From Peronospora farinosa (lineage: Eukaryota; Oomycota; Peronosporomycetes; Peronosporales; Peronosporaceae), in NCBI GenBank assembly GCA_947646735.1, contig CANTFK010000141.1, positions 174,207 to 238,206 of the forward strand: 64,000 bases of DNA, read 5' to 3'. The position numbers were made by a program, and so were the translations under genes. Every line of letters starts with the position of its first letter. Positions within the stretch are counted from its first letter, which is position 1. Shown in pieces: positions 3,661-28,108 of the stretch. Below the pieces are notes generated by a model that was not told the origin of the DNA, did no database searches, and saw nothing but the letters and a program-made list of their open reading frames with translations.

Positions 3661-3662
3661 CC

Positions 3663-3681: not shown

Positions 3682-3701
3682 TTCCAATGATCAGATAGGA
3701 G

Positions 3702-4727: not shown

Positions 4728-4745
4728 GCGCGGGGCGCCCTACTG
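4706..4745 (+). promoter_or_regulatory. -1 ribosomal frameshift signal at A1 gag/pol junction
   Basis: Slippery heptamer A-AAA-AAC in the gag reading frame (4706-4712), then a 9-nt spacer (4713-4721), then a hairpin at 4722-4745 with arms CAGTAGG and CCTACTG extended by CGC/GCG across one bulged base. The gag stop UAG is inside the 5' arm. Heptamer type, spacing and hairpin are shared with C1 and C2, and the same layout with a different heptamer is in B1. In A1 the protease frame now equals the gag frame because of a one-base insertion just downstream (see findings). Confidence 0.8.
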
Positions 4746-4751
4746 GCAGAA

Positions 4752-7700: not shown

Positions 7701-10351
7701 GTCGTCCTGATTACGATCCTCGGCGTGATATGGGTCATCAAACGGAGTATGTTGATGACGACGAAGATATCTGTGTGTGTTGTATTGAACTGGGACTAAA
7801 TGCGGTGATTTCGACCCCCGTGCTTTCGATCCGAACTCAGATCGCTGAATCCTACGCGAATGATTCCTTTTATGCAGGAATCATCAACTATCTCAGGGAC
7901 CCGAGCGAAAAATTACTCGCGAAGTTGACGAAACCAACACGCGACAACATCAAGCGTTACGCGCTTGACGGTCCGCTGCTGACGTACACGATGGACGTCT
8001 TTGATTCCCCGCGTGTCGTCATCCCTGCTGATGACGACCTTCGAGCCCGATTGGTTCATGAATTTCACGACAGCCCAGCTGGCGGACACCTGGGTCGCGA
8101 AAAGACGTTTGCAGCTATTTTTCGCGTATTTTTCTGGCCGCGAATGTATAAATACATCCAGAAATGGGTGCGCTCCTGTGAAACCTGTCAGCGTGTGAAG
8201 CCTGCGCCGTCTTCACAAGCCCCATTGCGTCCGCTTCCGATTGCTACGGAAGCCTGGCGCTCGGTCAGCATGGATTTTATCTTTGGCCTTCCACCGGATG
8301 AACAGAAACGCACGGGCGTATTGGTTCTAGTGGATCGATTCAGCAAAATGGTGCATTTTGCTCCGGTCTCCGCCAACATTACGGCGGAGACGACAGCGAA
8401 GATCTTCATTGATCTTATCTTTAGGCATCACGGCTTGCCAGAATCTATTGTTTCGGACCGTGACCCGCGTTTCACTTCGGCTTTCTGGGCCGAATTATTC
8501 CAGCTATTAGGCACGCGGTTGCTTATGTCTACGGCGGCCCATCCAGAGACGGATGGGCAAACGGAGCGTGTGAACAGAGTGCTCGAAGATGTCTTGCGCA
8601 GTTATGCAACATCGTTCTCATCATGGAGTTCATTTCTCCCACTTGCAGAGTTTGCAATCAACAATGCTATCCACGCGTCAACCGGGTTGACGCCCTTTTT
8701 CGTTAACAACGCGAGGCATCCTCGCGTTCCGGCGCTGCTTGCTCTCTCAGCTTCAGAACACCCTGTCTCCAAGCTTGGTGGGGGAGTATCTACGGATGGA
8801 ATTGCGCCGAAAGTATTGCTGAGTGATTACGATGCGCATAAGGTTGCTGCCGATGCACCTACTACTGGTAATTTTGTGGCCAACGGCATATCGACGCCTG
8901 ACGCGATGCTTTCCATCGCGTCTCCCGTTGTCAATTTTGCTCCAAAAGAGAATACGTCGCCTGTAAGTTCGGCTGCAGTAACCGAATTTCTACTATTACG
9001 ACAAGGAATCACGCGTTTTGTGCGTGATGCATTACAAGAGGCAGTAGACAAGCAAAAGGAGAATGCAGACAGAAGAGGTCGAAAGAATATGTTGATGTTT
9101 CGAGAAGGTGACAGAGTATTGTTATCAACAAGTGGATTACCGAACACCTCAGTGACGAATTTATGCGCTAATAAGTTAGCGCCAAGATATATTGGCCCAT
9201 TTCGGGTTGTTAAGGTGCATGGTGACGCTTACACGCTAGACATACCTACATCTATGCGTTTGCACCCGACGTTCTACGTCGGGCGCCTCAAGGCTTACCT
9301 GCCGGCGAATCTATCTTCGAATCTTCCCCGCTCTTCTGTGCCGGCTCGAAATCCGACATCCCTTGACGACGACGTTGACGACGACTGGGACCAAGTCCTG
9401 CCCGAACGCGTGCAGACTCGATCTGCTGGGGCCCTCCGAACGCAGTCGTCTCAAGTTGACGTAGGCGCTCAACCAGTACCAGTTGCTCACGTCGGGTCCG
9501 CTCAGCAGCCTCAGTCGCAGCATCCGCACGATCTTGAGCTCTCTCAGCCATCTCGCGAGCATCAAGTAGGGCATTCTTCGATTCCTCAGCTTCAGCGCGG
9601 AGTAGGCGCAGCTCATCATTCGACTGTACAGGCGCCCGATTACGAGAATCGGCGCTCATCGCCAGAGGTCTTCCGTCGTGATGCTCCTCCTCCATTAGTC
9701 GATGCATCGGGTGCGCGACGCTGGATTGTCGACTGGATTGTCGATCACGCGGATCACAAGTCCCAGGCGCCGAGTAATAACTCGGCGCCCATGAAGAAGC
9801 GTGTCGAGAAACATTACAGGGTTCGCTGGTTGGGATATTTCCCGGCGGACGATACATGGGAGCCATCGAGTACGCTGTCCCAAGATGTCCCGGACGTGGT
9901 CGAGGACTACGAGTCCCGTAGAAAGACGGCGATCTTGACCGACGCTGAAGGTTCCATCCCCGATCTCGCGATCCGTAATGCTCGCGAGCAACGAAACCGC
10001 GACGACATCCCGAGCGACTTCGAGACCGAGACCTATTACGAGGCTCGGGAGCATATGGATGATACGATTGACGATCTCGGCTACGTGAATGCCGTCGGCG
10101 ATCGTAAGGACGCGTTCTCACTCGCCGTAGCTCGGACACCTGGAGCTCCGAAAGGCTTCTCTCATAACGGGCAATCCATGGACGAATATGGTCGGGCATG
10201 CCTCGCGCACACACTAAGTCGTCCCATTCCTGCCGGACCGGTCGCGACCTGCCCACGTTGCATGTTGGACATCCCTCACGAATGTGGACGTAACAAAGGT
10301 GATACTCGTCACAAGTCATACGACAGATGCGCCGGCGCAGGTCGCCAATAG
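4752..10351 (+). pseudogene. A1 pol: protease, RT, RNase H, integrase, chromodomain
   Basis: Protease active site LLDSGASNNF (about 4885) and ILGIPW (about 5115) come first, then the repeat spacer, then RT with YFDDIFVHS (6889-6915), RNase H with VCDASNFAIGCAL, integrase zinc finger (H-x3-H...CETCQRV), catalytic core (MDFIFGLPP, VSDRDPRF, GQTERVN), the IGPFRVV segment and a C-terminal chromodomain with YRVRWLGY and TWEP (about 9815-9870). A tail of about 150 residues follows up to 10351. Breaks: a 4-base deletion in one repeat unit near 5507 changes frame, and a single TAG at 6998-7000 splits RT where relatives have Leu. The last kilobase is overlapped on the other strand by the antisense ORF. 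Confidence 0.93.
5349..5790 (+). repeat. 66-bp in-frame tandem repeat in the A1 protease-RT spacer
   Basis: About six and a half copies of a 66-bp (22-codon) unit starting GAGGCGGTCGA, each coding for two half-motifs of the type EAVEQ-x-x-P and TS-x-EQ-x-x-P. The third copy is 4 bases short and breaks the pol frame. B1 shows a degenerate repeat at the same place and C2 a 24-bp repeat in its own spacer, so the spacer is prone to expansion in all three families. The repeats presumably encode a flexible linker. Confidence 0.93.
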
Positions 10352-10604
10352 CGTGTCTATCACGCGTTCCCTCGCGACCGTCTAACCAGGACGTGAAGGA
10401 CGTTCCTTCACGTCGGCTCGCGTTCCAGCGCCTGATGAAGGCACACCAAGATCTCTGCAACGAATCGTCGGTATATGCGTTATTCGTCGCTTTGCTTCTC
10501 ACTGTACGGTATCGCGTGAAGAGGTCCTTCATGACCTCCAGTGGCTCGGGTTCGACAGCACCTTCAAGACCATACAAGCGCCACGGTTTCAAGTCCCCAT
10601 CCAT
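9288..10604 (-). CDS. A1 antisense ORF: SR-rich, coiled-coil protein (438 aa)
   Basis: Open minus-strand frame of 438 codons, opposite to gag-pol. It starts 200 bp inside the 3' LTR and overlaps the last 1,060 bases of pol. Order of parts: a region with QRSWCAFIRRW (about residue 55), a Cys/His cluster with CPTC (about 125), a long Arg/Ser-rich stretch including RSRSRSRSG, and a charged helical segment near residues 340-400 rich in Glu, Ala and Arg that looks like a coiled coil. Related pieces occur at the same place in C1, B2 and D1. No known family is recognised. Expression from the 3' LTR in antisense is inferred, not shown. The main alternative is that the frame is open only because of codon bias in pol. 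Confidence 0.6.
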   Translation of the reverse strand: MDGDLKPWRLYGLEGAVEPEPLEVMKDLFTRYRTVRSKATNNAYTDDSLQRSWCAFIRRWNASRREGTSFTSWLDGREGTRDRHAIGDLRRRICRMTCDEYHLCYVHIREGCPTCNVGRSRPVRQEWDDLVCARGMPDHIRPWIARYERSLSELQVSELRRVRTRPYDRRRHSRSRDRQSYHPYAPEPRNRSRSRSRSGCRRGFVAREHYGSRDRGWNLQRRSRSPSFYGTRSPRPRPGHLGTAYSMAPMYRPPGNIPTSEPCNVSRHASSWAPSYYSAPGTCDPRDRQSSRQSSVAHPMHRLMEEEHHDGRPLAMSADSRNRAPVQSNDELRLLRAEAEESKNALLDAREMAERAQDRADAATEAAERTRREQLVLVERLRQLETTAFGGPQQIESARVRAGLGPSRRQRRRQGMSDFEPAQKSGEDSKIDSPAGKP

Positions 10605-10792
10605 GACCTGCGGCGCCTGCTCTCTACGGATTGTCGCTTAGTGTTCCCAGTTACGGTTGTCAGAGACATCGTTTCGTGAACGTCCAGGGTCCATGCTGCT
10701 CAGTTAAGTCTAACTGAGCAGGTTCGGAGTTACGCCGTTGGTCGAGAAGAAACTTTCTGCGATTCGCGCTTACGTTGAGGTAAGCGCAACTT

Positions 10793-10807
10793 AAAGAGGG
10801 GGGATGA
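10793..10807 (+). other. A1 polypurine tract
   Basis: AAAGAGGGGGGATGA directly before the 3' LTR is the expected plus-strand primer site. Equivalent purine runs precede the 3' LTRs of C1, B2 and D1. Confidence 0.85.
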
Positions 10808-11127
10808 TGTAATGGGTCTACCTATTACATAAGTAGTTATAGGATTAATACATAATTACATAAGTAGGCATAGGGCAGTATCCGATTAGCGGATACTGCG
10901 CGTCAATTTATTATTGGTTTATTATTGGGGTGCCAGACCCAATAATTAGCCAATAATAAATTGACTTCCATATTTGAGTGGTTCCCATGAGCTAGGGAAC
11001 ATATTCGCACTTACTGCGAATTAAAACTAAAACAAAAATAAAACAGAGTTATATTTACGAGTTAATTAAGAGCGCTTCCTCAACGCCCTTTTAGTGTAAG
11101 ATGGTAACGGGTCCTTAGCCCGTTACA
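10808..11127 (+). repeat. A1 3' LTR
   Basis: TGTAATGGG...CCGTTACA, 320 bp, a near-copy of 3345-3660 with an extra four bases in an A-rich run. It is followed by the target duplication CTCGT. Confidence 0.97.
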
Positions 11128-11132
11128 CTCGT
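11128..11132. repeat. Target-site duplication of A1, right copy
   Basis: CTCGT, matching 3340-3344. Beyond it the minus-strand protease-RT spacer of B1 resumes. Confidence 0.93.
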
Positions 11133-13400: not shown

Positions 13401-13861
13401 TGTAACGGGGTGAGCCCGTTACATAATATTGACACTTATATGAAGTGTCAATTAAACATATTATTATAACTAATAATATTTTGACAATATTTATCTTTAC
13501 TTATAATATTGTTCCTTGATCTCCTTGAAGTTGGAGATGCCCCTATCATTGGTTGATATGGGCCATTATGTCAGCCAGAGCGCTGACCAATGACCGATGG
13601 ACGCGCGCAATGAGTGGAGGGCAAGTTGTCAACATACATAGTTGTAGTTTAATATAGTTAACATAGGTTATAACAGATTAGTTTTATTAGACAGTTAACC
13701 ATATTAAAAACAGTTTTCTTTTTTTCTCAACTAAGTGTTTGTTTAGTTAATTCCCTTCCTCTGCTCACGTGTACGTGAGGTAATTGAGGCACCTGCTTTC
13801 ACTTTAATCAGTGAAAGTAGACTATACTGTAATCAGTATAATCGGAGGGTGCCTCATTACA
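13401..13861 (+). repeat. C1 5' LTR
   Basis: TGTAACGGGG...TCATTACA. It is a chain of hairpins: the terminal AACGGG/CCCGTT pair, GACACTT...AAGTGTC, AATATTATT...AATAATATT, TTGGTTGATATG with its partner arm, TTTCACT...AGTGAAA and ACTATACTG...CAGTATA. Confidence 0.96.
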
Positions 13862-13863
13862 CC

Positions 13864-13882
13864 TGGTAGCACTTCGTGGTCC
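13864..13882 (+). other. C1 primer-binding site
   Basis: TGGTAGCACTTCGTGG, two bases after the LTR and identical to A1 in its first 13 bases. It suggests an initiator tRNA-Met-like primer. Confidence 0.6.
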
Positions 13883-13961
13883 GTTCAGCGACCACCGCAA
13901 CATCCGCTATGAATCAGCGGGTGATGATCGTCATCACGCAACGCGTGATGATTTCCGCCAT

Positions 13962-15092
13962 TTGAGTGACCTCGAATGGAATGCGGTTCAGCGTATGGCT
14001 GAAACCATCGACGATGCCGCCGTCGGTGCAATTTTACTCTCTTTGGTAGGAGATGAGCAACATGCAACCATCGTTAAGTTCATACAACATGAACTTGACG
14101 AAGTTGTAAAGAAACTCACCTTGCTACAGGAGCAAGGTTCTCAACAGGTTGACCTGTTGAGAGAACAAGGCGCTCAACAACCTGACTTGTTGATGAAGCA
14201 GGGTGCTCAACAGACTGAACTGTTGAGACAACAGCAGGCTAGTGCTGTTGCTGCCGGGTCGACGTATACACGTCGACCCGAGTCCTTGAAGATTGATATC
14301 TCCAAGTACAAGGCAATTGAAAGCGACTCCTTGTTAAGATGGTTCGTCGAACTCGACGATGCCATTGAAGCTCGTCGCATCGATGACGATGCGTTGAAGG
14401 TCAAGTTCGTCATGTCGAACTTGGCAGGACGTGCCAAAGCTTGGGCCTTAGGGCTCAAACTGCATGACCCATACATTTTCCAAACGTATAATGTCTTCAA
14501 GGCGCGGCTCAAACACACGTTTGAACCGCCTCGCGCCGATTTCAGGGCTCGGTCTGAGCTCCTGGATCTGAAACAGGGTAAGCGTGATATACACGATTAC
14601 GCCCAGCACGTACGATACCTCGTTAGCTGTATCGTACTGAACCCAATAGATGAACACACGCAGGTTACTGTGTTCATCAAGGGTCTGACAGATGGTCCTG
14701 TCAAGACCCATCTGTTCCGCTTGGAACTAGAATCGCTGGATCAAGCGATCTCTGCAGCGGAACAGGAGGACTTTAGCCTGCAACAGGCTCACGTCCACTC
14801 GGGGTCCTATCGTCCACCGAAACGACAGGAGGGCGGAGGTCCAGAACCAATGGACCTCTCCTATGTAGAGAGCGAGCGGCCTCGCTCTCCAGGGTACAAG
14901 AGATTGCAAAAGTGCAATCGCTGTCAAAAGTTGGGCCACTACGCTTATGAGTGTAGTGCCCCACGCCCAGTGTCTCGTAACACTGGGAGTGACGATCGTC
15001 CGTCTGCCAAGAAGGGCCAGAGACGTGGGTCCCACGTTGTTGCGATTTCGCAACAACGTGGTGGACCATCAAAAAACGGTCGGGGTCAGTAG
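13962..15092 (+). CDS. C1 gag, uninterrupted (about 376 aa)
   Basis: Capsid-like domain with LLRWFVELDDAIEAR and GRAKAWALGLKL. Upstream is a heptad-like run of Gln/Leu repeats (LLQEQGSQQVDLL...) that could form a coiled coil. Downstream is a zinc knuckle C-NR-C-QKLG-H-YAYE-C, and the frame ends at TAG 15090-15092 in the frameshift hairpin. No ATG occurs in frame upstream of codon 13962 although the frame stays open through the primer site; the first in-frame ATG is about nine codons inside. The true start is therefore unclear. The frame is intact here and in C2 (about five residue differences) while pol is broken in both, so gag seems to be the better-kept gene. Confidence 0.9.
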   Translation: MSDLEWNAVQRMAETIDDAAVGAILLSLVGDEQHATIVKFIQHELDEVVKKLTLLQEQGSQQVDLLREQGAQQPDLLMKQGAQQTELLRQQQASAVAAGSTYTRRPESLKIDISKYKAIESDSLLRWFVELDDAIEARRIDDDALKVKFVMSNLAGRAKAWALGLKLHDPYIFQTYNVFKARLKHTFEPPRADFRARSELLDLKQGKRDIHDYAQHVRYLVSCIVLNPIDEHTQVTVFIKGLTDGPVKTHLFRLELESLDQAISAAEQEDFSLQQAHVHSGSYRPPKRQEGGGPEPMDLSYVESERPRSPGYKRLQKCNRCQKLGHYAYECSAPRPVSRNTGSDDRPSAKKGQRRGSHVVAISQQRGGPSKNGRGQ

Positions 15093-15110
15093 GGGCGGAG
15101 CGCCCTACTG
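15071..15110 (+). promoter_or_regulatory. -1 frameshift signal at C1 gag/pol junction
   Basis: In-frame heptamer A-AAA-AAC (15071-15077), spacer of 9 nt (15078-15086), hairpin 15087-15110 with arms CAGTAGGG-CG and CGCCCTACTG around a GAG loop and one bulged G. The gag UAG sits in the 5' arm. The protease frame is -1 relative to gag and is open from the heptamer onward. This is the layout known from retroviral gag-pro signals. Confidence 0.85.
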
Positions 15111-18100
15111 ATCCAGCAACGTCAAGAGAGTTCGTGGGACTCTTGACGAAGGTTGCTCCCAACACACAGTCACTGTGTGTTGCCGCTCCCAGTGATGAGG
15201 TATCCCTCATCACCTTGAAGATCGAAGTGACAAAGAACATGTCACTTCGCACCCTAGTTGATTGTGGGGCTTCGAAAAACTTTGTTCGATGCCAATCGCT
15301 AGATGATCGTAGGCTCAAATATATTGAGCGCGAGACCCCTCCAACGAGGATGACGGTTCGCCTTGCAACTAACGCATCCGTAACAGTAAAGAAACGTGTA
15401 GTGGGAATTCACTACACGCTTAAAGGCAAAAAGTACGATGATGATCTCATCGTACTTGATCTGGATGACAAATTTAATGTCATCCTAGGATTACCATGAC
15501 TCAGAAGGTACGAGCCATGGGTCAGCTAGCAGCATCGAACCGTGAAGATGCCTGCCGCTTGTTCATCAGATGGCCATCTGATGAACGTCTTGGAGCGTTC
15601 ACAAGCGTGTGAATGTACTACGAGTGAGTGTGATGGCCTCACTTGTGGTTCGGTCGTTAGTACGACTGCACAAGAACTCAGCGTGACTGTCTGTCACGCT
15701 GTGGAGCAAGCTGCCTGCGGCTGTGCACAAGCACAGGCAGCGCCGAAGGTCCACCACTCGAATAAGTCGAGTGGACCGGGACATGAATGCTCGCCTAGAG
15801 GGCAACATTCACCGAAGAGTAAACCGGTTGCCCAGAAGCGGCCACAAGGTAATCCTAGATTAACTGGAGAGTTGATCGTAGAGGATCTCGCTGTGGTTGC
15901 GCCACCACAGCTAGAGGAAGTCGATGGAACAGGTTCCATCGAACCTGCGGGAATAAGTCCCCAGGAAGTAACCGATATGTTGAACGTCTTGATAATGACG
16001 GATCAAATGTAGGCGCTTATGATTGCGCCTCCAAAGTTAACTTCGGAGATAACTCAGTTGGCTAGGCTAGAACCTAAAAGGTTCTTGCGTGATCTGCGTA
16101 GTGGAAAAGTCAAGCAGATCTGTGTGCTCGTCGCAGAGGACGAGTACATGACTGACATTCGGTCAGCAACAGTTTTTGCCGAGAACGAACGGGTTCTCAG
16201 CAGCTCATCAATTGACGAGAGTGTCCTTGATGAGAAGACTCGGATTGAGCGATATACATCGCAATCCTGGAAGTCGCTGAAGTCAAATCCTTTGTATAAG
16301 GATTTGGTCGAATTCAAGGATGTTTTCCCTGAATCCGTTCCGTGCGAGTTGCCTAAGGATAGAGGTACTCGACACGAGATCGACCTTGTTCCTGGCACAA
16401 AATATTGTATCATGGAGCAGTGGCCACTGCCTCGGGAACAGATCGAGGCGATTGACAAGTTCTATGCCGATCGCCTAGCAGCGGGCCATGTGAGGGAGTC
16501 AACTTCACCTCACAGCTCTCCGACCTTCTGTGTGCGCAAGGCCACAGGAGGGTGGCGGATAGTACACGCGTTCAATAAGTTGAACGCTGCAACGATACCG
16601 GCGCAAACGCCGATACCGAGAAAGGACGTAATCATAGATGGTATGTCTAAGAGTACCATCTTTTCGTCCATGGATCTGATGGATGGTTTCTATCAGATCC
16701 TTATGCGTGAACGGGACATCCCGTACACAGCAGTGAGCACTCCCAGTGGTATGCTCTGGGAATGGTTGGTGATGACGCAAGGGCTTAGTAATGCACCAGC
16801 CACATTCAATAGATGTATTTCACATCTATTGAGACCGGTGGGCGAATTCGCACCGAGTTACTTCGATGATGTGTTCGTCCATAGTCGGGCTATGGACGGA
16901 AAACCGACGTGGAAGTCCATAGACTCCACGTCCGTAAGGTTCTTACACTTATGCGCGAGCATAAGTTGTACGCCAACCTCAAGAAGTGTATATTCGCAGC
17001 TAGCGAAATACCACTTCTTGGGTGCATCGTCGGAAAGAATGGCGTACGCCCTGATCCAGAAAAGATCAAGGCGATCACCGACTGGCCAGTGCCAGTCGAT
17101 GTCAAGGGACTAAGGAAGTTCCTTGGGATAGCGGCGTACTTGCACAAGTACTCGCGCAATTACGCCAAAATGATAGTACATCTTTCTTGTTTACTCAAGA
17201 AAAATGTAAAGTGGAATTGGAACGCTGACTGTCAGCGTTCCTTTGAACGTATCAAGCAAAGCTTGGTGCAATCGCCAGTATTGGCGATTGCCGATCAAGA
17301 CAGACCATTTCATGTGGTCTGTGACGCCAGTGATTTTTCAATCGGCTGTGCACTGATGCAATATGATACAGACGGCGCAGAGCGTGTCGTCTGTTATCAA
17401 TCGCGTCAGCTGCAACCAGCCGAGCGCAATTACCCGGTGCATGACAAGGAACTCCTTGCCATGAAGTATGCACTGGCTAAGTTTCGCGTCTATCTCTTAG
17501 TAGATAGACCGTTCATTGTGTATACAGACCATGCGTCACTACGCACGGCTGTAAACAGTCCACACCTTTCGCAACGGATGGCGAGATGGTTGTCGTTCTT
17601 CGCGGAGTACAACTTCTCCGTGAAGTATAAACCGGGACGACTTAACGTCGTCGCCGATGCTCTTTCACGTCGGCCTGACCTAGAGCCGACTGTGCAATCC
17701 GACAGTGATGTGAGCACCACTGTTGCCACGCTGAGTACCAGCGTCTTGTCGTCGAGCTTACTCGACGACATTAGAAGGGCATGCGCACAAAATAATGATC
17801 TTGTACGCCTGATGGAGTACCTCAAACAACCCATCCACGCAAGCTAAGAAGCGCTTGCTTGCCATGTATCGATCTTCTCTAGATCGATACACCCAGCGGG
17901 ACGGCTTACTGTACTACACAGCCGTCAACAACGACACGCCTCGTGTCGTTGTACCGCCACAACATGATCTCAGGTTACGGATCATGTTTGAATGTCACGA
18001 TGCACCAATAAGTGGGCATCGCGGCCGTGAGAAGACTTACCTCACGGTCAGTCGCGACTTTTATTGGCCACGTCAGTATAAGTTTGTGCGCAAGTACGTG

Positions 18101-19939
18101 CGTGCTTGCGAGGTGTGTCAACGAGTGAAGCCTAGTCCTTCACTCCGTGCACCATTGCAGCCTCTAACTGTTCCGGCAGAGTGCTGGGAGTCCGTATCAA
18201 TGGACTTCGTCTTTGTGTTTCCCAAAGACGCTCACGGGAATAATGGTATTCTCGTGTTTGTAGACAGGTTCAGCAAGATGGTACATCTTGTTGCTGTACC
18301 GTAGTCGATCACAGCAGAGGGCTGTGCTCGAGTGTCTATTGATACAATCTTTCGATTGCACGAGTTACCCCGTGAACTTGTGTCCGATAGGGACCCCCGG
18401 TTCACGGCTGAGTTTTGGCGTTCCGTGTTCCAAACACTTGGAACACGGCTCACAGTGTCTACTTCTGACCATCCAGCAACTGATGGTCAGACTGAACGCG
18501 CCAATCGCGTCCTCGAAGACATTTTTTCGAGGGTACGTCCACTCGTTTACGAGTTGAAGCGAGTTCTTGTCGATGGTCGAATTCGCCATCAACAACTCCG
18601 TGCATGCTTCCACGACGCATACACCGTTCTACGTGAATGGCCTTTGCCATCCACGTGTCCCCACCTGAATAGAAAATGACTCTAATTTAAGGGGGGGGGA
18701 GGGACTCGCTCGAGCGAGAACCAATCTGGCTCTTGCTCATCTGGTTACTTTCGCGTCGACCATTACGTCGTCGCGAAAGTAACCGAAGTCGTACCATTCG
18801 ACTTCGGTGAAGAGGAAGAAATTGAGAGCGATGAAGCTCTTACTGATAACGATGCTGAAGATATCAGCATTGTTCGAGGTATCACAAGTGAAATCAGTAA
18901 TGTTCTCGCTGAATTAGTAACCGATATCTCTGCAGTGCACTCACAATGCACTGCAGATAAAAGCAACGAGTCAGCTGAGGATTTCCTGCTGACTCGTGAA
19001 GCGGTAGTCCGTTTCGTGCAAAACTCCATCGCAGAAGCGGTGGATAAGCAAAAGCGAAACGCAGACAATAATGGAAGGGCAAATGCTCAGAAATTTATTG
19101 AAGGTGATTTAGTTTTACTGTCAACAGTAAACCTACCTACACATGTAGTGACTAACGTGGGCAGCAATAAATTGTTGCCTAAGTACATCGTCCCGTCTCG
19201 TGTATTGCGCCGCCTAGGCAACGCATACACGATCGAGTTGCCACGCAGGATGCGTACGCATCCTACGTTTTACGTGGGACGTCTTCGTCCGTACGTTCAG
19301 TACGCGGCTTCTTCGAACGCCGAAGATAGCCATTACTCTCAAGAATCCCCTTCAGATTCTTGTTGTTACGAACCAGATTCGATACCTGGTCGTGTAGAGA
19401 TGAGATCGTCCCATGATATAGGACGATCTCCTGACGAGCTGTCGCCAGCTCGTTACTTAGAGAATGAAGCCGCCGTTCATACTCCAATAGTGCGACAGCA
19501 CTGTTTGCCCGAGACTTCTCATGGTCAAACCCAAGCTGTCGCACAATGTCCTCTAAGCGGCGACGCTTATCCCGTTCGTGATCAACATCACAACGGAGCT
19601 CACGAGTTACACGGGCAAACCCGTCTAACTCAGCAGCCAAGTCCGATAGAAGAATCGGACAGGGTTTTTCCTCCACCACCGCATCCGCTGGTGGACTCCC
19701 ATGGCGGGAAGCGCTTCCTCGTGGAACGCTTACTAAATCACCGCGAGATGAAGTGAACTCGAGCGAGTTATCTCGTCCGGTGGCGTGGCTATCCGCCTTC
19801 GGCGGATAGCTGGGAACCTCGGGCCCAACTGATGGCCGACGTTCTTGACCTTGTCGAACAGTACAACAAGGAACATCCGATGGTGAAGGGCCATCGGAAA
19901 ACGAACGCCCAGCGCGCTCGTAAAGGGATTGCAAAGTAG
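15111..19939 (+). pseudogene. C1 pol: protease, RT, RNase H, integrase, chromodomain (broken)
   Basis: Protease has TLVDCGASKNF (Cys where Asp-Ser is usual) and VILGLP, followed by TGA at 15497 in place of a conserved Trp. Then come a spacer, RT (16019-17113) with YFDDVFVHS, RNase H (VCDASDFSIGCAL), the integrase zinc finger ending CEVCQRVKP, the core (MDFVFVFPKD, VSDRDPRF, GQTERAN) and a chromodomain with YLVRWRGY and SWEP. Lesions: one-base loss near 15994, a frame change near 16900, stop near 17845, TAG at 18302, frame change near 18530, and TGA at 19754 just before the chromodomain. Palindromes run through the whole reading frame. Confidence 0.9.
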
Positions 19940-21033
19940 CAATTCCTTCACGCATCTCAGAAAAGATGCGAGCCCTCCACCAGGGCTCAGTAAGGAGGTA
20001 CGCCTCCTTAGGTGCTCTTGACGAGGTGCTCAGGCACCCCGGGCATGGGTCGCCCCAAGAGAGGCATAACAGGCCTGCCTCTCTAGATAACCGGTGCAAA
20101 CGATAGCATTCACCGGACGTACTTCGTTTCTCAAACTTATTGCGGCTAGCATAAAGTCTTTGAAACCAAGCCTCTTTCCCAACGTTTAAAACGTTGGTGA
20201 TAAACGCGTTCCAAGATTGGAGGAACGCGTCAGCCTCACGCTTCTTGTGTGGGCCATACCATCGATGTTCAAGAAATACATCGATGTAATAGTCGTTCTC
20301 AGTGCGAAAGTTCTTCGCACTGGCGTCAAGCCATGAAGCTTTGACGCATCAAACAACGGTATGGGAACCGTTCGTTGGTCTTTCCAGACCAACGATCAAT
20401 CAGATGCTTAGGTAGCATCTATGGCTTGCGATCAGGAGCAAGACGCAATACGTTGCGGTCTAAATCCTCCTGCGTGGTGTCAATAGAAGTACCGACACCA
20501 CGAGCATTAGTGTCAACAGAAGTACCGACACTATGATTATTGATGTCAGTAGAAGCACTGACATCACCCTTACGGTCCCCACCCGAGTCACTATCCTTCG
20601 ACTCGTTTGACGAGTCGTCTGATTCATCAGACGACCCGAACATTTCACGGTACATTGATTCACTCAATGTACCACGATCTCTCTTCGTAACACTTGACGA
20701 CGAGGTATCACCCCGGGGAGAGCCCGGGAGTGACACAGGTGGCTTTGAGTCGGATGCGTCATCCGACTCACCAGAGTAGTCAACGACTAACTCTGGGTCA
20801 ACATCTTCACGTGGCGAAGCGCTACGTGAACCTGCAACAGGCGTTGCAGGCTGATGATGAATTCCAGCAGACACATTAGTGTCTGCTGGCTGAGGCTGTG
20901 AAGCCTCAGTAGCGGCTGCACACAGGCGTGCAGCCGAGCTCTTAGCTGCCTTAGCAGCGACGCGCATTGACTTTGTCATAGCGTAATTGTTGAATGAAAG
21001 AAAATTCAACAAGTGCTCCTTTCTTATAGTCAC
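19263..21033 (-). pseudogene. C1 antisense ORF, split by one stop and one frame change
   Basis: Minus strand, starting about 40 bp inside the 3' LTR. The N-terminal part (21033-20419, 204 codons) is Ala- then Ser/Asp-rich and contains PELVVDYSGESDD. A TAG and a frame change around 20419-20345 follow. The C-terminal part (to 19263) contains FLQSWNAFI, a Cys motif with PCPGC and an extended coiled-coil-like segment (RRRLEDIVRQLGF, then VSNLVRNNKNLKG). It overlaps the last 680 bases of pol. The VDY motif recurs in B2 and D1 and the SW-AFI and Cys motifs recur in A1. Function unknown. Confidence 0.6.
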
Positions 21034-21060
21034 TAAACATCACTAATGTGACTGTTGGTT

Positions 21061-21074
21061 GAGGGAGGGGGTGA
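21061..21074 (+). other. C1 polypurine tract
   Basis: GAGGGAGGGGGTGA directly before the 3' LTR. Confidence 0.85.
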
Positions 21075-21534
21075 TGTAACGGGGTGAGCCCGTTACATAA
21101 TATTGACACTTATATGAAGTGTCAATTAAAAATATTATTATAACTAATAATATTTTGACAATATTATCTTTACTTATAATATTGTTCCTTGATCTCCTTG
21201 AAGTTGGAGATGCCCCTATCATTGGTTGATATGGGCCATTATGTCAGCCAGGTCGCTGACCAATGACCGATGGACGCGCGCAATGAGTGGAGGGCAAGTT
21301 GTCAACATACATAGTTGTAGTTTAATATAGTTAACATAGGTTATAACAGATTAGTTTTATTAGACAGTTAACCATATTAAATACAGTTTTCTTTTTCTTC
21401 TCAACTAAGCGTTTGTTTAGTTAATTCCCTTCCTCTGCTCACGTGTACGTGAGGTAATTGAGGCACCTGCTTTCACTGTAATCAGTGAAAGTAGACTATA
21501 CTGTAATCAGTATAGTCAGAGGGTGTCCATTACA
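21075..21534 (+). repeat. C1 3' LTR
   Basis: TGTAACGGGG...CCATTACA, 460 bp. It matches 13401-13861 with scattered substitutions. Confidence 0.96.
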
Positions 21535-22553
21535 TAAATGCCTCGTGCTACTAGCACACACCTTCAACACAAGCGAGGAAGCGGTTAGACCGTCTTACCT
21601 TCGCGTGGGAGGGTGGATATGCGGTTGGTCGACTGCTTAAGCAGTCGTACCACCAGTTGCCTCTCGCTTAAGCGAGATCGCAACGAACTTCTAAACAAGA
21701 AGTCACCGGCGTCACGCAGAAGCTTTTAGAGCTTCTCGTGCGCGGTGCTTTCGATTTAGCAAATTCAACTGAGCTATACTTATTTAATCTATATAATAAA
21801 GTTATTGTCCGTCCGGGCGATCCTTTTCCGGCATGTGGATTGGCTAATTTTGCATTATTCGCTAATTTTGGATTGGCTGATTTTGCATTTTGCACGACCA
21901 TTATTTGAGCTAAGTGCGTCTGGGTACGTGTTTCCTATACGTAAGTAAGTCACAGAACGATGCGTAATTAACCTTTGACCTATCATTACATATTGCTATA
22001 TCAACACAGCTTATTTATAAATAATAAATAAGACACATGCTTTATAAGCGTTTCAATTCATGGGCTCAGTGCTTATATATTACACTAGAAAGCTGGCAAA
22101 AGCAAGCGTTCTCATCAGATTATATCGGAGTTTATTACAATAAGTGATGTGACCCATATGTATTGTATCTGCATTTTGTATGAATTGTTACATGAGGAGA
22201 TTGTCATTATATAATTTAGTCCATCCCCGAGTGTCCATGTGTCGTACTTTAATTTATAAAAGTAATATACGAAACGATGGCACACATAAATGTTCATATG
22301 CATCATTACATATTGCAATATTAAACACAGCATTTTTTTAAATTTATTAGATTTGGCACATGCTTCACGATGTCTGGCTTCAACTAGCGTCATCCCTTCT
22401 CATGTGAATCCATAAATTGATATCACATTCACGCGGGTGGATCACATTTGTGTAACGCACCCAAGTGACAGGTCAAAAGTAATCATGGATACTTTTAGAC
22501 CAAACATTAAGTATATTACTTAATGTTTGCGTGTAACTAGATGCCCTGTTACA
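21535..22553 (-). repeat. B1 5' LTR, main part right of C1
   Basis: Both ends match the B2 LTR (28654-29253), for example GCCTCGTGCTACT at the left and GATGCCCTGTTACA at the right. The middle (about 21780-22374) is unrelated to B2 and about 450 bp longer. That insert holds two roughly 70-bp related segments (from about 21978 and about 22300, each with CATTACATATTG and ACACATGCTT-like words) and no coding frame. Total B1 LTR length is about 1,044 bp against 600 bp in B2. Confidence 0.85.
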
Positions 22554-22591
22554 CACTTCATATAAGTGTCAATATTATTAACCCCGTTACA
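22554..22591 (-). repeat. 38-bp terminal fragment of a C-type LTR
   Basis: On the minus strand it reads TGTAACGGGG then TTAATAATATTGACAC, the start of a C-type LTR with its first hairpin arm lost. It abuts the B1 LTR end directly. It may be the relic into which B1 inserted. Confidence 0.65.
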
Positions 22592-22813
22592 TTTTTTAAA
22601 CAAGTATAATACGTAGAGCAAATATATCAACTAGACTCATAACGTTGGAAACGTGTTTAAGTTATGAAGTAGGTCACTTTGAAGACTGGTCGAGGCTTGT
22701 GAAGTAGCGAAGCCACAAAAGTTCTTCGATCTTCGAAGACTAAGCGTACAAATCACTAATATAGCAGCTTCACTGGGGCAAGCGCACCCTTGCGAAGTAC
22801 TTGTTCACCTCGC

Positions 22814-24282
22814 CTACTGACGCCGATTAATATAAACACCTGCAGCTTTTTGTAGCGCGCTTCCGTACAGCGTATTTTCATTCCCTTCTGTTTTCACTAT
22901 AATCACGCTCAGGAGCACTCTCACGACAGGAGTCTCATCATCGGTCCAGATCTTCAGCATCTTATTTTTCAATTCTTCTTCTAGATGCAAAGTAACATCA
23001 GGGTTTTTAACCGTATACAACAGTGTCTTTAAATACGGACGCGAATGCTTCTCCAATATCGAACACATCGATACTTTAAGTGTCTCGTGTACATTAGAAT
23101 TGTAGTAGGTAAGGTAGCTCGTCCAAAAGGGGAGTAAATGGTTTTCGAAAAGGGTGTCTCCGGCCTTGTCAAGTCCGAGGTTAGTGAAGGCATAATCTAG
23201 AGTACGACCTAGCCAAAACCAGAGGTCTCTTATTTCAGCTTCCACTCGCAACGCGACTTTGTCTTTTGGCGCCCTGGTTGCAGCGACCACCAAAGGTCCG
23301 ATATCATAAGCCTCTAGCAGTCTGGAAAGCATTGTTTGAGCCGGCATGTTGCCTTTGCTGGAATCGCCCATGTACTCTACCCAGTAGACTAGCTGTGGCT
23401 GTTCGAAAAGGGTGTCTCCTGCAAACTTAAGCCCATATAAATCGAAAACATCCTCGGGGTCGATATGATTCTTGAAAAAGTACTTGTTCGCTTCTTTAAA
23501 GATCGTGGCCCAATCTTCCTTTTTAAAGAGTGACATAACGTCGATGAAAGGCATTTTAGGCTTTTCACCTTCTTTCGTTTCCATGTTCAGCAATTGTGCA
23601 TCGTTTGCTTTGGCCAAAAAATCATTCACCACAATTTTACGAATCTTGGCGATTTTGTTCTCGGGCTCCAGCATTTCTGCCGGACGTTTTAAGGTATTCG
23701 TGATCGTGAAATTGACACACCTTCGATGGGAGTCGAGCTTAGGTCAAATTTTTCTGCCGAACCTTTAAAGGTATTCGAGGTATCTGACGCACCTTCGAAA
23801 GGAATCGAGTTTAGATCAAATTTTTCTGCCGGACCTTCATAGGTATTCGAGGTATCTGACATACCTTCGAGAGGAATCGACTTTAGATCAAATTTTTCTG
23901 CCGGACCTTCATAGGTATTCGAGGTATCTGACATACCTTCGGGAGGAATCGAGTTTAGATCAAATTTTTCTGCCGGGCGTTTCATGGTATTGGTAATCGT
24001 GGAATCTGATGCACCTTCAAGGAGATGCGAGTTTAGAAGCGAGAAATCAATATTTTTAGCCGCATGTTCGAGGTCAGTCGAGCTTACTATTTCTTCGCCA
24101 AAGTTGAGGTCATTTATCCTCTCTTCTACGTCTTCGTCACGTGCACGTTCTTGGACCCTTAAGTGCCTCTGAACTTCAAATTGACCATCGGTGGTGACGG
24201 CGTCCAACGGCTCTGCATGTGCACCAACACCCACTGGACGGGTAGTAACAGCCCAAAATATCGGGACGCAGGGAAGTCGCAT
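22814..24282 (-). pseudogene. RxLR-dEER effector with tandem repeats and LWY domain, frameshifted
   Basis: The first frame (24282-23689) begins with a hydrophobic signal-peptide-like start (about residues 1-23), then RHLR at 39-42 and an acidic run ending in EER at 53-55, the host-targeting pair of oomycete effectors. Then come four 24-residue repeats built on PAEKFDL-x-S. The second frame (23674-22814) holds two LWY-like modules, recognisable by AGDTLFE and paired Trp/Tyr residues, as in PSR2-type effectors. The frames are joined by a one-base loss near 23713, where this repeat copy lacks a G present in its siblings. As read, the LWY part would not be made. Such proteins act inside plant cells; this one's target is unknown. 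It lies between retroelements, the usual setting for effector genes. A sequencing error at this base cannot be excluded. Confidence 0.88.
23715..24005 (-). repeat. 72-bp tandem repeat inside the effector gene
   Basis: Four tandem copies of a 72-bp (24-codon) unit, plus a shortened fifth, between the EER motif and the LWY region. Each codes for an AEKFDL core and an EG-x-S end. The units differ by few bases, so the array is recent. Confidence 0.9.
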
Positions 24283-24731
24283 GGTTTTGGATTATAGACG
24301 TGCTTGAGGTCTGGTGGTCGAGTTTAGTAATGACAAATGGCGACTGTGAAGTGACTGGGGGTATAGGAGAAACGGTACATTATCCGATGTACATGTAGAG
24401 AGACAGGCAAAAAGTAACTGTAATTGTTTACCTAACATAAGGTATATAAGAGATTACGAGCGCATTCGATTTGAAGGTCGTGAAAAGCGGTCAAGCTCAG
24501 TGTTTTCTGCTATCAGTACATGCACACACCATACACCTTGAGAAGTTGAGAGTTTGATCGCCATTTGAATTGCTTGACACACAGGCACAGATTGAAAATA
24601 AAGTTGATTTGGTATTAACGAGTGAGGTTTGGTTGAAATGCTGATAGTTCTCTTCCACTGAAGAACTACGAGCAGTGTCGTTTCTTTCCTATGACTAGGA
24701 TATCATGAAAAGACCCAACGGGGTTGAGCAC
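24283..24731. other. Intergenic region upstream of the effector
   Basis: About 450 bp between the effector start and the end of the acyltransferase stump. I see no open frame, repeat or LTR signature. It should hold the effector promoter, but no defined element can be assigned. Confidence 0.5.
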
Positions 24732-25188
24732 CTAAGCACCGTGAATAACCTCAAGCAAGCTCGGGTTCTCGACAAACTCCTTGAGGCTCTTGGCCATACG
24801 AGCCACCTCACAACTGTTCGCGTACTGATGATCGACTGTCGTGGTAAGTGTTAGCATTGGACGCACTTCAACCTTGTCGTTCACAACTACGGCTTTGTCC
24901 AAGATTGAACCGATGTTCACGAGCATGGGCACTTGCGAATACAATGGAATAGAAGAGAACGCCATGTCCAACCCCATCATGCCGACGGATGTCACCATAC
25001 AGCTGCCAAACATGAACGGATCTTTACCCACCTGTGGAATGCGAACACCACAGGCACCCCCAAGCCACCCGAAGACATTACGCATAAGCCGAATGACCCA
25101 GGTTGGCAGCAAACTCATGCTTTTGTTTCGGTCCCCCTGGCCACTACACATTTTAGTAGAAACGCCACGCAGACAGTTATCGACGTCC
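24732..25188 (-). pseudogene. C-terminal stump of a 2-oxoacid dehydrogenase acyltransferase-like gene
   Basis: Minus-strand frame of about 150 codons ending at TAG 24732. The stretch FGSCMVTSVGMMGLD, then VPMLVNIGSI and a VDH motif, resembles the catalytic domain of E2-type acyltransferases. The usual H-x3-D-G active site here reads H-QYA-N-S, so catalysis is doubtful even in the intact parent. The upstream half is missing: at 25188/25189 the frame runs straight into the truncated element C2, and nothing homologous appears beyond C2. The gene was cut by insertion or by a deletion with one end inside C2. Confidence 0.6.
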
Positions 25189-26403
25189 CATCAAGGACAC
25201 TCTCGTCCATTGATGAGCTGCTGAAAACCCGTTCGTTCTCGTCAAAAACTGTTGCTGACCGAATGTCAGTCATGTACTCGTCTTCTGCGACGAGCACACA
25301 GATCTGCTTGACTTTGCCACTACGCAGATCACGCAAGAACCTTTTAGGATCTAGCGTAGGCAACTGAGTTATCTCCGAAGTTAACTTTGGAGGCGCAATC
25401 AGATCAAGCGTATAAGCGCCTACGTTTGATCCGTCATTAACCAAGACATTCAACGTCTCGGTTACTTCCTGGGGACTTATTCCCTCAGGGTACTGGGGAC
25501 TTATTCCCTCAGGGTACTGGGGACTTATTCCCTCAGTGATTATTTCCTGGGGACTTATTCCCGCAGGCTCGATGGAACCTGTTCCATCGACTTCCTCTAG
25601 CTGTGGTGGCGCAACCACAGCGAGATCCTCTACGATCAACTCTCCAGTTGATCTAGGATTACCGTGTTGCCGCTTCTGTGCAACCGGTTTACTCTTCGGT
25701 GAATGCTGCCCTCTAGGCGAGCATTCATGTCCCGGTCCACTCGACTTATTCGAGTGGTGGACCTTCGGCGCTGCCTGTGCTTGTGCACAGCCGCAGGCAG
25801 CTTGCTCCACAGCGTGACAGACAGTCACGCTGAGTTCTTGTGCAGTCGTACTAACGACCGAACCACAAGTGAGGCCATCACACTCACTCGTAGTACATTC
25901 ACACGCTTGTGAACGCTCCAAGACGTTCATCAGATGGCCATCTGATGAACAAGCGGCAGGCATCTTCACGGTTCGATGCTGCTAGCTGACCCATGGCTCG
26001 TACCTTCTGAGTCATGGTAATCCTAGGATGACATTAAATTTGTCATCCAGATCAAGTACGATGAGATCATCATCGTACTTTTTGCCTTTAAGCGTGTAGT
26101 GAATTCCCACTACACGTTTCTTTACTGTTACGGATGCGTTAGTTGCAAGGCGAACCGTCATCCTCGTTGGAGGGGTCTCGCGCTCAATATATTTGAGCCT
26201 ACGATCATCTAGCGATTGGCATCGAACAAAGTTTTTCGAAGCCCCACAATCAACTAGGGTGCGAAGTGACATGTTCTTTGTCACTTCGATCTTCAAGGTG
26301 ATGAGGGATACCTCATCACTGGGAGCGGCAACACACAGTGACTATGTGTTGGGAGCAACCTTCGTCAAGAGTCCCGCGAACTCTCTTGACGTTGCTGGAT
26401 CAG
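25189..26403 (-). pseudogene. C2 protease and spacer, truncated pol
   Basis: The frame 26296-26012 is the protease. It ends with the same TGA after VILGLP as C1. The frame 25969-25115 is the spacer before RT, intact where C1 has lost a base. Near the end it reads out of the element into the acyltransferase stump in another frame. No RT remains. Confidence 0.88.
25469..25560 (-). repeat. 24-bp repeat in the C2 pol spacer
   Basis: Three to four copies of a 24-bp unit (on the plus strand TACTGGGGACTTATTCCCTC) coding for EGISPQYP on the minus strand. C1 has a single copy of the motif, so C2 expanded it after divergence. Confidence 0.88.
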
Positions 26404-26440
26404 TAGGGCGCTCCGCCCCTACTGACCCCGACCGTTTTTT
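26401..26440 (-). promoter_or_regulatory. -1 frameshift signal at C2 gag/pol junction
   Basis: On the minus strand: AAAAAAC (26440-26434), 9-nt spacer, hairpin 26424-26401. Identical in sequence to the C1 signal. Confidence 0.82.
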
Positions 26441-27549
26441 GATGGTACACCACGTTGTTGCGAAATCGCAACAACGTGGGACCCACGTCTCTGGCCCTTC
26501 TTGGCAGACGGACGATCGTCACTCCCAGTGTTACGAGACACTGGGCGTGGGGCACTACACTCATAAGCGTAGTGGCCCAGCTTTTGACAGCGATTGCACT
26601 TTTGCAATCTCTTGTACCCTGGAGAGCGAGGCCGCTCGCTCTCTACATAGGAGAGGTCCATTGGTTCTGGACCTTCGCCCTCCTGTCGTTTCGGTGGACG
26701 ATAGGACCCCGAGTGGACGTGAGCCTGTTGCAGGCTAAAGTCCTCCTGTTCCGCTGCAGAGATCGCTTGATCCAGCGATTCTAGTTCCAAGCGGAACAGA
26801 TGGGTCTTGACAGGACCATCTGTCAGACCCTTGATGAACACAGTAACCTGCGTGTGTTCATCTATTGGGTTCAGTACGATACAGCTAACGAGGTATCGTA
26901 CGTGCTGGGCGTAATCGTGTATATCACGCTTACCCTGTTTCAGATCCAGGAGCTCAGACCGAGCCCTGAAATCGGCGCGAGGCGGTTCAAACGTGTGTTT
27001 GAGCCGCGCCTTGAAGACATTATACGTTTGGAAAATGTATGGGTCATGCAGTTTGAGCCCTAAGGCCCAAGCTTTGGCACGTCCTGCCAAGTTCGACATG
27101 ACGAACTTGACCTTCAACGCATCGTCATCGATGCGACGAGCTTCAATGGCATCGTCGAGTTCGACGAACCATCTTAACAAGGAGTCGCTTTCAATTGCCT
27201 TGTACTTGGAGATATCAATCTTCAAGGACTCGGGTCGACGTGTATACGTCGACCCGGCAGCAACAGCACTAGCCTGCTGTTGTCTCAACAGTTCAGTCTG
27301 TTGAGCACCCTGCTTCATCAACAAGTCAGGTTGTTGAGCGCCTTGTTCTCTCAACAGGTCAACCTGTTGAGAACCTTGCTCCTGTAGCAAGGTGAGTTTC
27401 TTTACAACTTCGTCAAGTTCATGTTGTATGAACTTGGCGATGGTTGCATGTTGCTCATCTCCTACCAAAGAGAGTAACATTGCACCGACGGCGGCATCGT
27501 CGATGGTTTCAGCCATACGCTGAGCCGCATTCCATTCGAGGTCACTCAA
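26419..27549 (-). CDS. C2 gag, uninterrupted (about 376 aa)
   Basis: Same length and order as C1 gag: Gln/Leu heptad-like segment, capsid domain, C-NR-C-QKLG-H-YAYE-C knuckle, and the end at the TAG in the frameshift hairpin. About five residue differences from C1. As in C1 the frame has no clear ATG at its left end. It is open although the rest of the element is truncated. Confidence 0.9.
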   Translation of the reverse strand: MSDLEWNAAQRMAETIDDAAVGAMLLSLVGDEQHATIAKFIQHELDEVVKKLTLLQEQGSQQVDLLREQGAQQPDLLMKQGAQQTELLRQQQASAVAAGSTYTRRPESLKIDISKYKAIESDSLLRWFVELDDAIEARRIDDDALKVKFVMSNLAGRAKAWALGLKLHDPYIFQTYNVFKARLKHTFEPPRADFRARSELLDLKQGKRDIHDYAQHVRYLVSCIVLNPIDEHTQVTVFIKGLTDGPVKTHLFRLELESLDQAISAAEQEDFSLQQAHVHSGSYRPPKRQEGEGPEPMDLSYVESERPRSPGYKRLQKCNRCQKLGHYAYECSAPRPVSRNTGSDDRPSAKKGQRRGSHVVAISQQRGVPSKNGRGQ

Positions 27550-27649
27550 ATGGCGGAAATCATCACGCGTTGCGTGATGACGATCATCACCCGCTGATTC
27601 ATAGCGGATGTTGCGGTGGTCGCTGAACGGACCACAAAGTGCTACCAGG

Positions 27650-28108
27650 TGTAATGGGGCACCCTCCGACTATACTGATTACAGTATAGTCTACTTTCAC
27701 TGATTACAGTGAAAGCAGGTGCCTCAATTACCTCACGTACACGTGAGCAGAGGAAGGGAATTAACTAAACAAACGCTTAGTTGAGAAGAAAAGGAAACTG
27801 TATTCAATATGGTTAACTGTATAATAAAACTAATCTGTTATAACCTATGTTAACTATATTAAACTACAACTATGTATGTTGACGACTTGCCCTCCACTCA
27901 TTGCGCGCGTCCATCGGTCATTGGTCAGCGCGTTGGTTGATATGATGGCCCATATCAACCAATGAGAGGGCATCTCCAGCTTCAAGGAGATCTAGGAACA
28001 ATATTATAAGAAAAGGTAATATTGTCAATATATTATTAGTTATAATAATATTTTTAATTGACACTTCATATAAGTGTCAATATTATGTAACGGGCTCGCC
28101 CCGTTACA
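27650..28108 (-). repeat. C2 5' LTR
   Basis: 459 bp, minus orientation, TGTAACGGGG at 28108 down to CCCCATTACA at 27650. It has the same hairpins as C1, with one hairpin arm (27933-27944 with 27951-27962) fully Watson-Crick paired where C1 has G-U pairs. Confidence 0.93.

Follow-up and report, generated by a model that had tools for sequence, protein, structure and literature searches.

Short Perfect Hairpins Fill a Ty3/Gypsy Retrotransposon Family of Peronospora farinosa and May Arise by Fold-Back Copying

Element C1 and Its Copies

C1 occupies positions 13401-21534 of a 64,000-nucleotide stretch (the window) of the genome of the downy mildew Peronospora farinosa (contig CANTFK010000141.1, assembly GCA_947646735.1). 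On its domain order and termini, it is classified as a Ty3/Gypsy chromodomain long terminal repeat (LTR) retrotransposon of this genome. The oomycete origin of the window agrees with its dymeclin, which has 99% identity to one of Peronospora effusa across 97% of the query. The salient property of its family is the content of hairpins: the best-kept copies carry about 110 perfect stem-loops from LTR to LTR, with arms of 8-12 bases and loops mostly of 3-7. A combination of fold-back template switching, which would generate the hairpins, and selection, which would keep a subset of them, is tentatively favored as their origin.

The LTR pair of C1 is bounded by TG..CA, as in Ty3/Gypsy elements, and both a primer binding site (PBS) and a polypurine tract are recognized (Table 1). 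The order of gag, protease, reverse transcriptase (RT), RNase H, and integrase, likewise that of Ty3/Gypsy elements, is taken from Pfam matches in a better-kept copy, L010; C1 itself is frame-broken, its frame shifting before pol ends. L010 harbors a gag of 407 amino acids, a 1,289-residue open reading frame (ORF) containing protease, RT, RNase H, and integrase, an SH3 and chromodomain ORF of 411 residues, and an antisense ORF of 633 residues, all counted stop to stop. In the C copies, the SH3/chromodomain ORF is in a different frame from the integrase ORF, which ends ahead of it (L010:5457-5563). No open frame exceeds 1,289 residues among the 118 matches listed; copies of two related families, A and D, read through in a single frame.

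A PBS similar to that of C1 is also found in families A and D, and ARAGORN detects no tRNA gene within the window. Self-priming by the 5′ end of the RNA was considered and set aside because the PBS is of the tRNA type and has no 9-mer match to the element's own LTR. The LTR tips in families A, C, and D open with a short stem-loop of the TGTAAY..RTTACA type, the pairs of which differ by family as judged by eye (window 13401-13423 and 21074-21098; L038:162-183; L039:7159-7177).

At least 40 stretches in the assembly, C1 included, match a 1-kb piece of C1 at 93% identity or more. Loci L029-L033, chosen by protein identity as separate families, were rejected as such, being 94-97% identical to L010 in DNA. 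Searches of viral and genome contig collections returned no relatives. C1 shares its contig with the shorter copy C2 and with L009. These three (window 13401-28109 for C1 and C2; G000:C32:154562-162912 for L009) share mutations, as if they had arisen by local duplication and not by separate insertions.

Table 1. Features of C1 and of related elements in the window. IRs, inverted repeats, given against the mean of shuffled sequences.
Feature	Position	Strand	Remarks
A1, related element of family A	3345-11128	+	33 IRs vs 1.5
5′ LTR of C1	13401-13861	+	direct repeat with 21075-21534; end TTACA; PBS adjoining
Hairpin opening the 5′ LTR, TGTAACGGG..CCCGTTACA	13401-13423	+	
Primer binding site, tRNA-type, TGGTAGCACTTCG	13864-13876	+	putative, by sequence reading
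gag ORF	13962-15092	+	Retrotrans_gag 2.4e-13; Ty3_capsid; hairpin-dense
Longest perfect hairpin of C1, 14-bp arms, 2-base loop	15032-15061	+	loop TT in C1 and C2, AA in 33 copies
Slippery heptamer A AAA AAC	15071-15077	+	in gag frame
Conserved stem-loop, 9-bp arms	15086-15111	+	over gag stop codon 15090-15092; conserved in A and D
Perfect palindrome, 26 bases	15561-15586	+	
Hairpin with inverted 5-base loop	15679-15701	+	TGTCT in C1, L009, and C2; AGACA in 29 copies
Reverse transcriptase ORF	16019-17113	+	RVT_1 4e-17
RNase H ORF	16909-17847	+	different frame; RT_RNaseH 4.8e-34
Position-conserved hairpin (A and D)	18464-18491	+	compensatory C-G to A-T change
SH3_Tf2-1 domain ORF	18935-19756	+	chromodomain comes next in L010
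Position-conserved hairpin (A and D)	19160-19179	+	compensatory changes; one G.U in C
Position-conserved hairpin (A and D)	19261-19279	+	compensatory change; one U.G in C
Broken remnant of antisense ORF	19263-21033	-	intact length 633 aa in L010
Inner part of hairpin 20864-20889	20872-20881	+	loop ATTA in 16 copies, TAAT in L026
Loop region of hairpin 20913-20936	20921-20928	+	loop ACAGGC in 16 copies, GCCTGT in L023
Polypurine tract GAGGGAGGGGG	21061-21071	+	by sequence reading
3′ LTR of C1	21075-21534	+	about 98% identity to 5′ LTR
C2, second, shorter copy	25186-28109	-	35 IRs vs 0.6

Excess of Hairpins

Inverted repeats were counted as perfect arms with a loop of 0-12 bases and, unless another arm length is given, arms of at least 8. 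C1 contains 88, as opposed to 1.2 in 20 dinucleotide shuffles or 1.38 in 50. With arms of at least 7, 9, and 10, the counts are 118, 58, and 34 against 5.4, 0.4, and 0.15, respectively (20 shuffles). Restricting the loop to 3-12 leaves 78, where shuffles predict one per 8.05 kb, close to the chance rate of one per 7.7 kb estimated in the initial annotation. The more than forty palindromes seen there by eye between 13.9 and 17.6 kb correspond to 54 at arms of at least 7 and 41 at arms of at least 8; each of the seven quoted individually is a perfect inverted repeat at its place, and that at 16807-16831 has one further pair (16806-16832). The spacing of 30-60 bases given at the time was too dense, the mean in C1 being about 92 (88 in 8,134 bases) and L010 having a median of 43.5 and a mean of 73.9. 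In L010, 110 hairpins make up one third of the length. Loop lengths peak at 4-5 bases.

The excess persists when the encoded proteins are held constant. Codon-preserving shuffles, a check suggested by the initial annotation, yield 0.62, 1.36, and 0.44 for the gag, pol, and third ORF of L010, where 19, 42 (z 34), and 16 are observed; for gag and RT of C1, the values are 14 against 0.47 and 9 against 0.46. Host genes were said to be devoid of the property, and this holds: the kinesin and dymeclin genes have none (0.73 and 0.24 in codon-preserving shuffles), and an 18-kb gene stretch contains 4 IRs against 3.1. Chance, base composition, or low complexity is thus contradicted by the dinucleotide and codon-preserving shuffles alike and can be considered practically negligible as an explanation.

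Folding energies lead to the same distinction. In 120-base windows, the C family has a mean z of -4.58 on the plus strand (34 windows, 91% below -2) and -4.40 on the minus strand, in contrast to -0.27 and 0.06 on the two strands of the kinesin gene. The folding energy of the C family is therefore far under that of matched shuffles, as is characteristic of an ordered structure. In families A and D, the z-scores are weak (-0.98 and -0.94).

The excess is not exclusive to C1. Of the two other elements named for comparison in the initial annotation, A1 is enriched (Table 1) and B1 little (3 IRs against 0.7); element E has 2 against 0.5. A copy of family A (L038) contains 36 against 1.4 and a copy of family D (L039) 23 against 1.1. 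Four Copia loci contain 2, 5, 2, and 9 IRs, with 0.7-0.8 in shuffles. They are taken as one family because the same two hairpins recur in all four; the extra hairpins of L035 and L037 sit in C-matching flanks. At two hairpins per locus, the sole Copia family examined is not clearly enriched and has a slight excess at most. The sole PF13359 locus, L054, has 2 IRs in 3.5 kb, and with one Copia family and one PF13359 locus these transposon controls are thin. Tandem repeats with a spacing of 33 bases occur inside A1 (5315-5838) and with a spacing of 72 bases outside C1 (23713-23991).

The density per kb in L010 is 15-17 in the LTRs, 18 in gag, 11 in pol, 14.8 in the stretch coded on both strands, and 16.6 in the antisense-only stretch. 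Third-to-third codon pairing is found in 12 of 68 cases, where one third is expected (p 0.006); the antisense-only stretch, with 7 of 18, lacks this register bias. It had been proposed that synonymous choice must accommodate the arms, with which the register bias agrees but the undiminished density in the overlap of sense and antisense ORFs does not. Among 103 homologues, amino-acid identity is alike in arm codons (0.623, 64 codons) and other codons (0.634, 345 codons).

A Probable Frameshift Signal at the gag Stop

The most specific role found for any of the hairpins, the probable stimulation of frameshifting where gag ends, was not among the roles initially proposed. Signals for -1 programmed ribosomal frameshifting in retroelements comprise a heptamer X XXY YYZ in the gag frame, a short spacer, and a downstream stem-loop. 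C1 has the same arrangement with nothing unusual about it: an in-frame A AAA AAC, a spacer of 8 bases, and a stem-loop in the gag/pol overlap, with pol open in the -1 frame. Positions 15071-15111 are a probable -1 frameshift signal, in which the stem-loop would act as the stimulator.

Of the 34 copies (out of 40) for which this site was read, 33 have the heptamer. At least 8 of the 9 pairs of the stem are present in 33 copies, and the 34th, whose loop contains a gap, was left unscored. Family D has the same arrangement of heptamer and stem-loop. In L038, from family A, a single frame spans gag and pol, and the stem-loop is still there.

Conservation between Families

For comparison between families, reading frames were aligned, and a hairpin was scored as kept when at least 85% of its pairs were retained. 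The null was the observed pattern of changes shifted to neighboring places at the same codon phase. Family D keeps 13 of the 36 hairpins of A, where the null mean is 1.75 (maximum 7 of 500); in the opposite direction, A keeps 9 of 36 (null 2.05, maximum 7), and C keeps 4 of 32 from A (null 0.37, p 0.002). Of the hairpins of C, 2 of 63 are kept in A and 1 of 59 in D, and C keeps 2 of 25 from D; these three comparisons have no excess over their nulls. A compensatory pair change is present in 3 of the 13 A-to-D hairpins, and the arms of A hairpins are 72% identical to D, compared with 65% in local flanks. Each of the four A-to-C hairpins (C1 15086, 18464, 19160, and 19261) has at least one compensatory change, two of them with G.U in C. 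The hairpins of C are mostly family-specific, and an old core remains.

These data bear on an explanation by selection alone, according to which a structured genome (RNA, or RNA together with minus-strand cDNA) is needed, hairpins arise by point mutation and are retained, and turnover separates the families. Packaging, Gag binding, protection from sensing of double-stranded RNA (dsRNA), and translation control are offered as possible purposes. The explanation is held to be nearly as likely as the favored one, at less than even odds. In its favor are the retention from A to D, D to A, and A to C above the nulls, the compensatory changes of the core with their G.U pairs in C, the higher identity of A arms, the low folding z on both strands (-4.6 and -4.4), and the one hairpin with a probable function, that of frameshifting. 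The three comparisons without excess count against it, as does the hairpin density undiminished where both strands code. Ordered RNA structure, a role suggested at the outset, gains from the folding of C on both strands and from the core retained between families with compensatory changes.

Stem Properties

If selection acted on the sense RNA alone, G.U pairs should be favored throughout, and near-miss stems should be left behind. Interruptions of stems in the C lineage comprise 9 G.U, 20 A.C, and 15 others. Variants in C arms give G.U and A.C counts of 51 and 53 when confined to a single copy and of 39 and 27 when shared; the corresponding interruptions number 21 and 27 from A to D and 23 and 29 from D to A. 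The tolerance of G.U typical of RNA pairing is not seen in these comparisons, the exceptions being the shared variants (39/27) and two hairpins of the core. The preponderance of A.C in the C lineage has a p of 0.06, too weak to name a strand.

The stems also end abruptly. Pairing past the first outer mismatch is near chance in C (0.254), A (0.291), and D (0.214). Stems with a single mismatch number 5 in A, next to 36 perfect ones and about 3.3 in shuffles, and 7 in D, next to 22 perfect ones and 3.4 in shuffles. Both the abrupt ends, with few near-miss stems in A and D, and the lack of a consistent G.U preference weigh against selection alone and point to a copying process.

Loop Inversions

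At 13 hairpin centers, two loop alleles are exact reverse complements of each other (9 loops of at least 3 bases and 4 of 2 bases) in a comparison of 40 aligned sequences, 18 of which span only about 3 kb. Among segments of 3-8 bases, reverse-complement alleles are found at 20 of 232 places flanked by arms of at least 6 and at 16 of 48,092 flanked by arms of 0-3, although nested segment lengths can count one inversion event several times. For lengths of 5-8 alone, the figures are 16 of 181 and 7 of 32,021 (p 1e-31). Inversion of the spacer between perfect arms is a mark of quasipalindrome mutation. Template switching, which the initial annotation had suggested during reverse transcription, does happen at these hairpins; its timing, and an origin of the hairpins in reverse transcription, are not proven by the inversions.

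At 8 of the 13 places, just one copy has the rare allele; these copies include L027, L030, and L031, all among those most diverged from C1. The inversions may thus be events of host replication after insertion, since several of the copies carrying them are much mutated. A bias of host DNA replication or repair acting on inserted copies could, by extension, have made the hairpins themselves. This is very improbable: the number of hairpins decreases with private mutations, host genes have no excess, and one Copia family, B1, and E have little.

Decay and Variation among Copies

Hairpin counts were compared in 17 sequences, namely, C1 and 16 of 20 full-length copies; L023, L024, L027, and L028 (fewer than 7,900 covered columns) and C2 were excluded. 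The number of hairpins between the LTRs drops with rising private substitutions (rho -0.61, p 0.009), which counts in favor of selection alone. L010 and L013 have 95 hairpins and almost no private substitutions, whereas L009 (72) and L021 (68) have the most. Part of the scarcity of private substitutions in L010 and L013 reflects kinship because their mutual identity is 99.2%.

Decay is common to C1 and L009: in the union set, 33 pairs are broken in both yet intact elsewhere, and 4 have the opposite distribution. Where C1 and L009 retain arms, the other copies carry changes at 4 of 1,351 columns in arms, compared with 20 of 410 in loops and 182 of 6,022 elsewhere. After correction for decay, about 16 arm changes are expected (p 0.0005), an estimate of the author's own that assumes equal mutation rates in arms and outside, in line with variants confined to a single copy, which amount to 0.098 per column in both. 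This deficit in the active C lineage also favors selection alone. In opposition to it, the test least affected by the choice of hairpins finds no depletion of shared variants in arms (p 0.47 at threshold 1 and 0.27 at threshold 3), except when restricted to hairpins present in at least 9 copies (p 0.02).

The Antisense ORF

An antisense ORF of 615-633 residues lies at the 3′ end of C elements (L010:6019-7917, minus strand) and overlaps the chromodomain ORF by about 0.7 kb. Relatives of its protein in Peronospora matthiolae are about 40-50% identical over much of the length, and one cluster has 1,335 members. Its Pfam matches are weak and single-member only, and no PDB match is better than E 0.18. 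The predicted model is poor (pLDDT 56, pTM 0.31) and all-helical, ending in a long C-terminal helix. Families A and D have no antisense ORF homologous to that of C.

As a special case of selection, hairpins on both strands might prevent long sense/antisense dsRNA and consequent silencing. The family with the conserved antisense ORF is the densest (13.5 per kb in L010; 36 in A and 23 in D per 8-kb locus), and folding of both strands should not favor G.U, as observed. However, this correlation extends over three families only, and A and D have a hairpin excess without a homologous antisense ORF. Complementary hairpins can also speed antisense pairing via loop contacts. Such protection is considered unlikely. 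An equally doubtful extension is a strand-symmetric hairpin armor, in which sense RNA, antisense RNA, and cDNA would each self-fold on short Watson-Crick stems written by the element's RT through fold-back template switching, allowing the transcripts to coexist without long dsRNA.

Proposed Origin of the Hairpins

The favored reading, to which a probability of roughly 0.45 is assigned, is that fold-back template switching generates the hairpins and selection keeps a subset. A growing DNA strand would fold back at a short inverted repeat and copy its own arm, as in quasipalindrome correction, so that hairpins are written and re-perfected, most likely in reverse transcription. That step is favored because host genes lack the excess; because Copia, which also reverse-transcribes, has a slight excess at most, the cause would have to be peculiar to these Ty3 elements. 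Events harmful to gag, pol, or the antisense ORF would next be purged by selection on the proteins. Certain hairpins may be co-opted, or functional from the outset, and held by selection, above all the probable -1 frameshift stem-loop. The outcome would be an element that folds strongly on both strands.

A copying process is preferred because stems end abruptly, near-misses are few in A, and G.U is not consistently preferred. The loop inversions, which place template switching at these hairpins, and the published cases of such switching at inverted repeats (PMC8604942, PMC8794818) also count in its favor. Consistent with it are the similar density in LTRs, gag, pol, and the double-coded and antisense-only parts, as well as the small number of C hairpins with counterparts in A or D.

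Several observations weigh against template switching as the generator. Rewriting of one arm predicts unequal divergence, but neither an excess of asymmetry nor an arm polarity that would tell minus- from plus-strand synthesis was found. Conversion should leave some fixed double changes in arms, and none of the compensatory kind distinguishes the C1 lineage from the remaining copies; one two-base compensatory change is present in the LTR near 13730. The C lineage has 44 imperfect stems beside 105 perfect ones. The arm-length excess peaks at 8-9 and stops near 12, neither of which a simple mutational process predicts. Gains of several bases at once are rare: in 22 sequences, a hairpin arm is created by 7 of 433 change clusters, at four distinct places with one scored twice, once per LTR, in two copies, and destroyed by 17. 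LTR identity as a measure of age does not track hairpin number in the 17 sequences (rho 0.31, p 0.23). The loop inversions are of a kind known from yeast nuclear replication, 4 of the 13 involve 2-base loops, and the rare alleles are largely private, as described above. Finally, position-conserved hairpins with compensatory changes in A, D, and C indicate at least some selection. Selection alone stays a close rival on account of the lacking polarity and fixed double changes, the imperfect stems, and the peak at 8-9.

Comparison with Known Systems

Some RNA viruses have genome-scale ordered RNA structure, with folding energy far below shuffles along the genome. The C family resembles them in folding far below shuffles along the element. 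It differs in that its units are short, abrupt, Watson-Crick perfect, alike on both strands, and located in a retrotransposon.

The nearest described case is that of the coding palindromes of Nematomorpha. Palindromes in their mitochondrial genes are either perfect or absent, undergo gain and loss, and have a codon-phase bias, and template switching is suggested among the causes (PMC6649704). Perfect repeats in coding sequence, gain and loss, and a bias against third-to-third pairing ("phase 3" in the author's reading of that text) are common to both systems. The scarcity of imperfect repeats described there holds in A, nearly in D, but not in C. In contrast to the nematomorph palindromes, which reach 284 bp in that account and are mitochondrial, those of this nuclear-type element measure 8-14 bp (14 bp being the longest arms of C1) and number about a hundred per LTR retrotransposon. 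They also occur in LTRs and in a double-coded stretch, with loop inversions between copies, which differs from the nematomorph case as reported (PMC6649704).

In yeast genes, template switching between inverted repeats homogenizes arms and inverts spacers, the switching being placed in DNA replication (PMC8604942). In RNA genes, template switching can, as summarized by its authors, create and maintain perfect stems (PMC8794818). The C family shares with these the exact inversion of spacers at hairpins with similar arms and a mechanism for perfect stems. The yeast events are scattered and single, with 10 spacer inversions in coding sequence (PMC8604942), whereas in the C family hairpins run the length of an entire element.

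Chronos and Archon are described in PMC5348765 as oomycete Ty3/Gypsy groups, both with an extra plant-related RNase H and Chronos with a chromodomain. C1 resembles Chronos as an oomycete Ty3/Gypsy element with a chromodomain and is assigned to neither group. One RT (P0046), labelled Nitrospira sp. from a metagenome-assembled genome, is 61% identical to the oomycete RT and probably stems from an oomycete contig in that assembly. Among the top-ranked matches to titles and abstracts of openly licensed papers, no such hairpin-filled retrotransposon was found.

Implications

A multicopy element with about a hundred hairpins, better- and worse-kept copies, and sister families constitutes a natural experiment on selection versus a copying process. 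The density in the stretch with ORFs on both strands shows how much structure a coding sequence can bear. If the copying process is true, many "conserved RNA structures" would need a mutational null. If selection is true, an LTR element would have a genome-wide RNA architecture.

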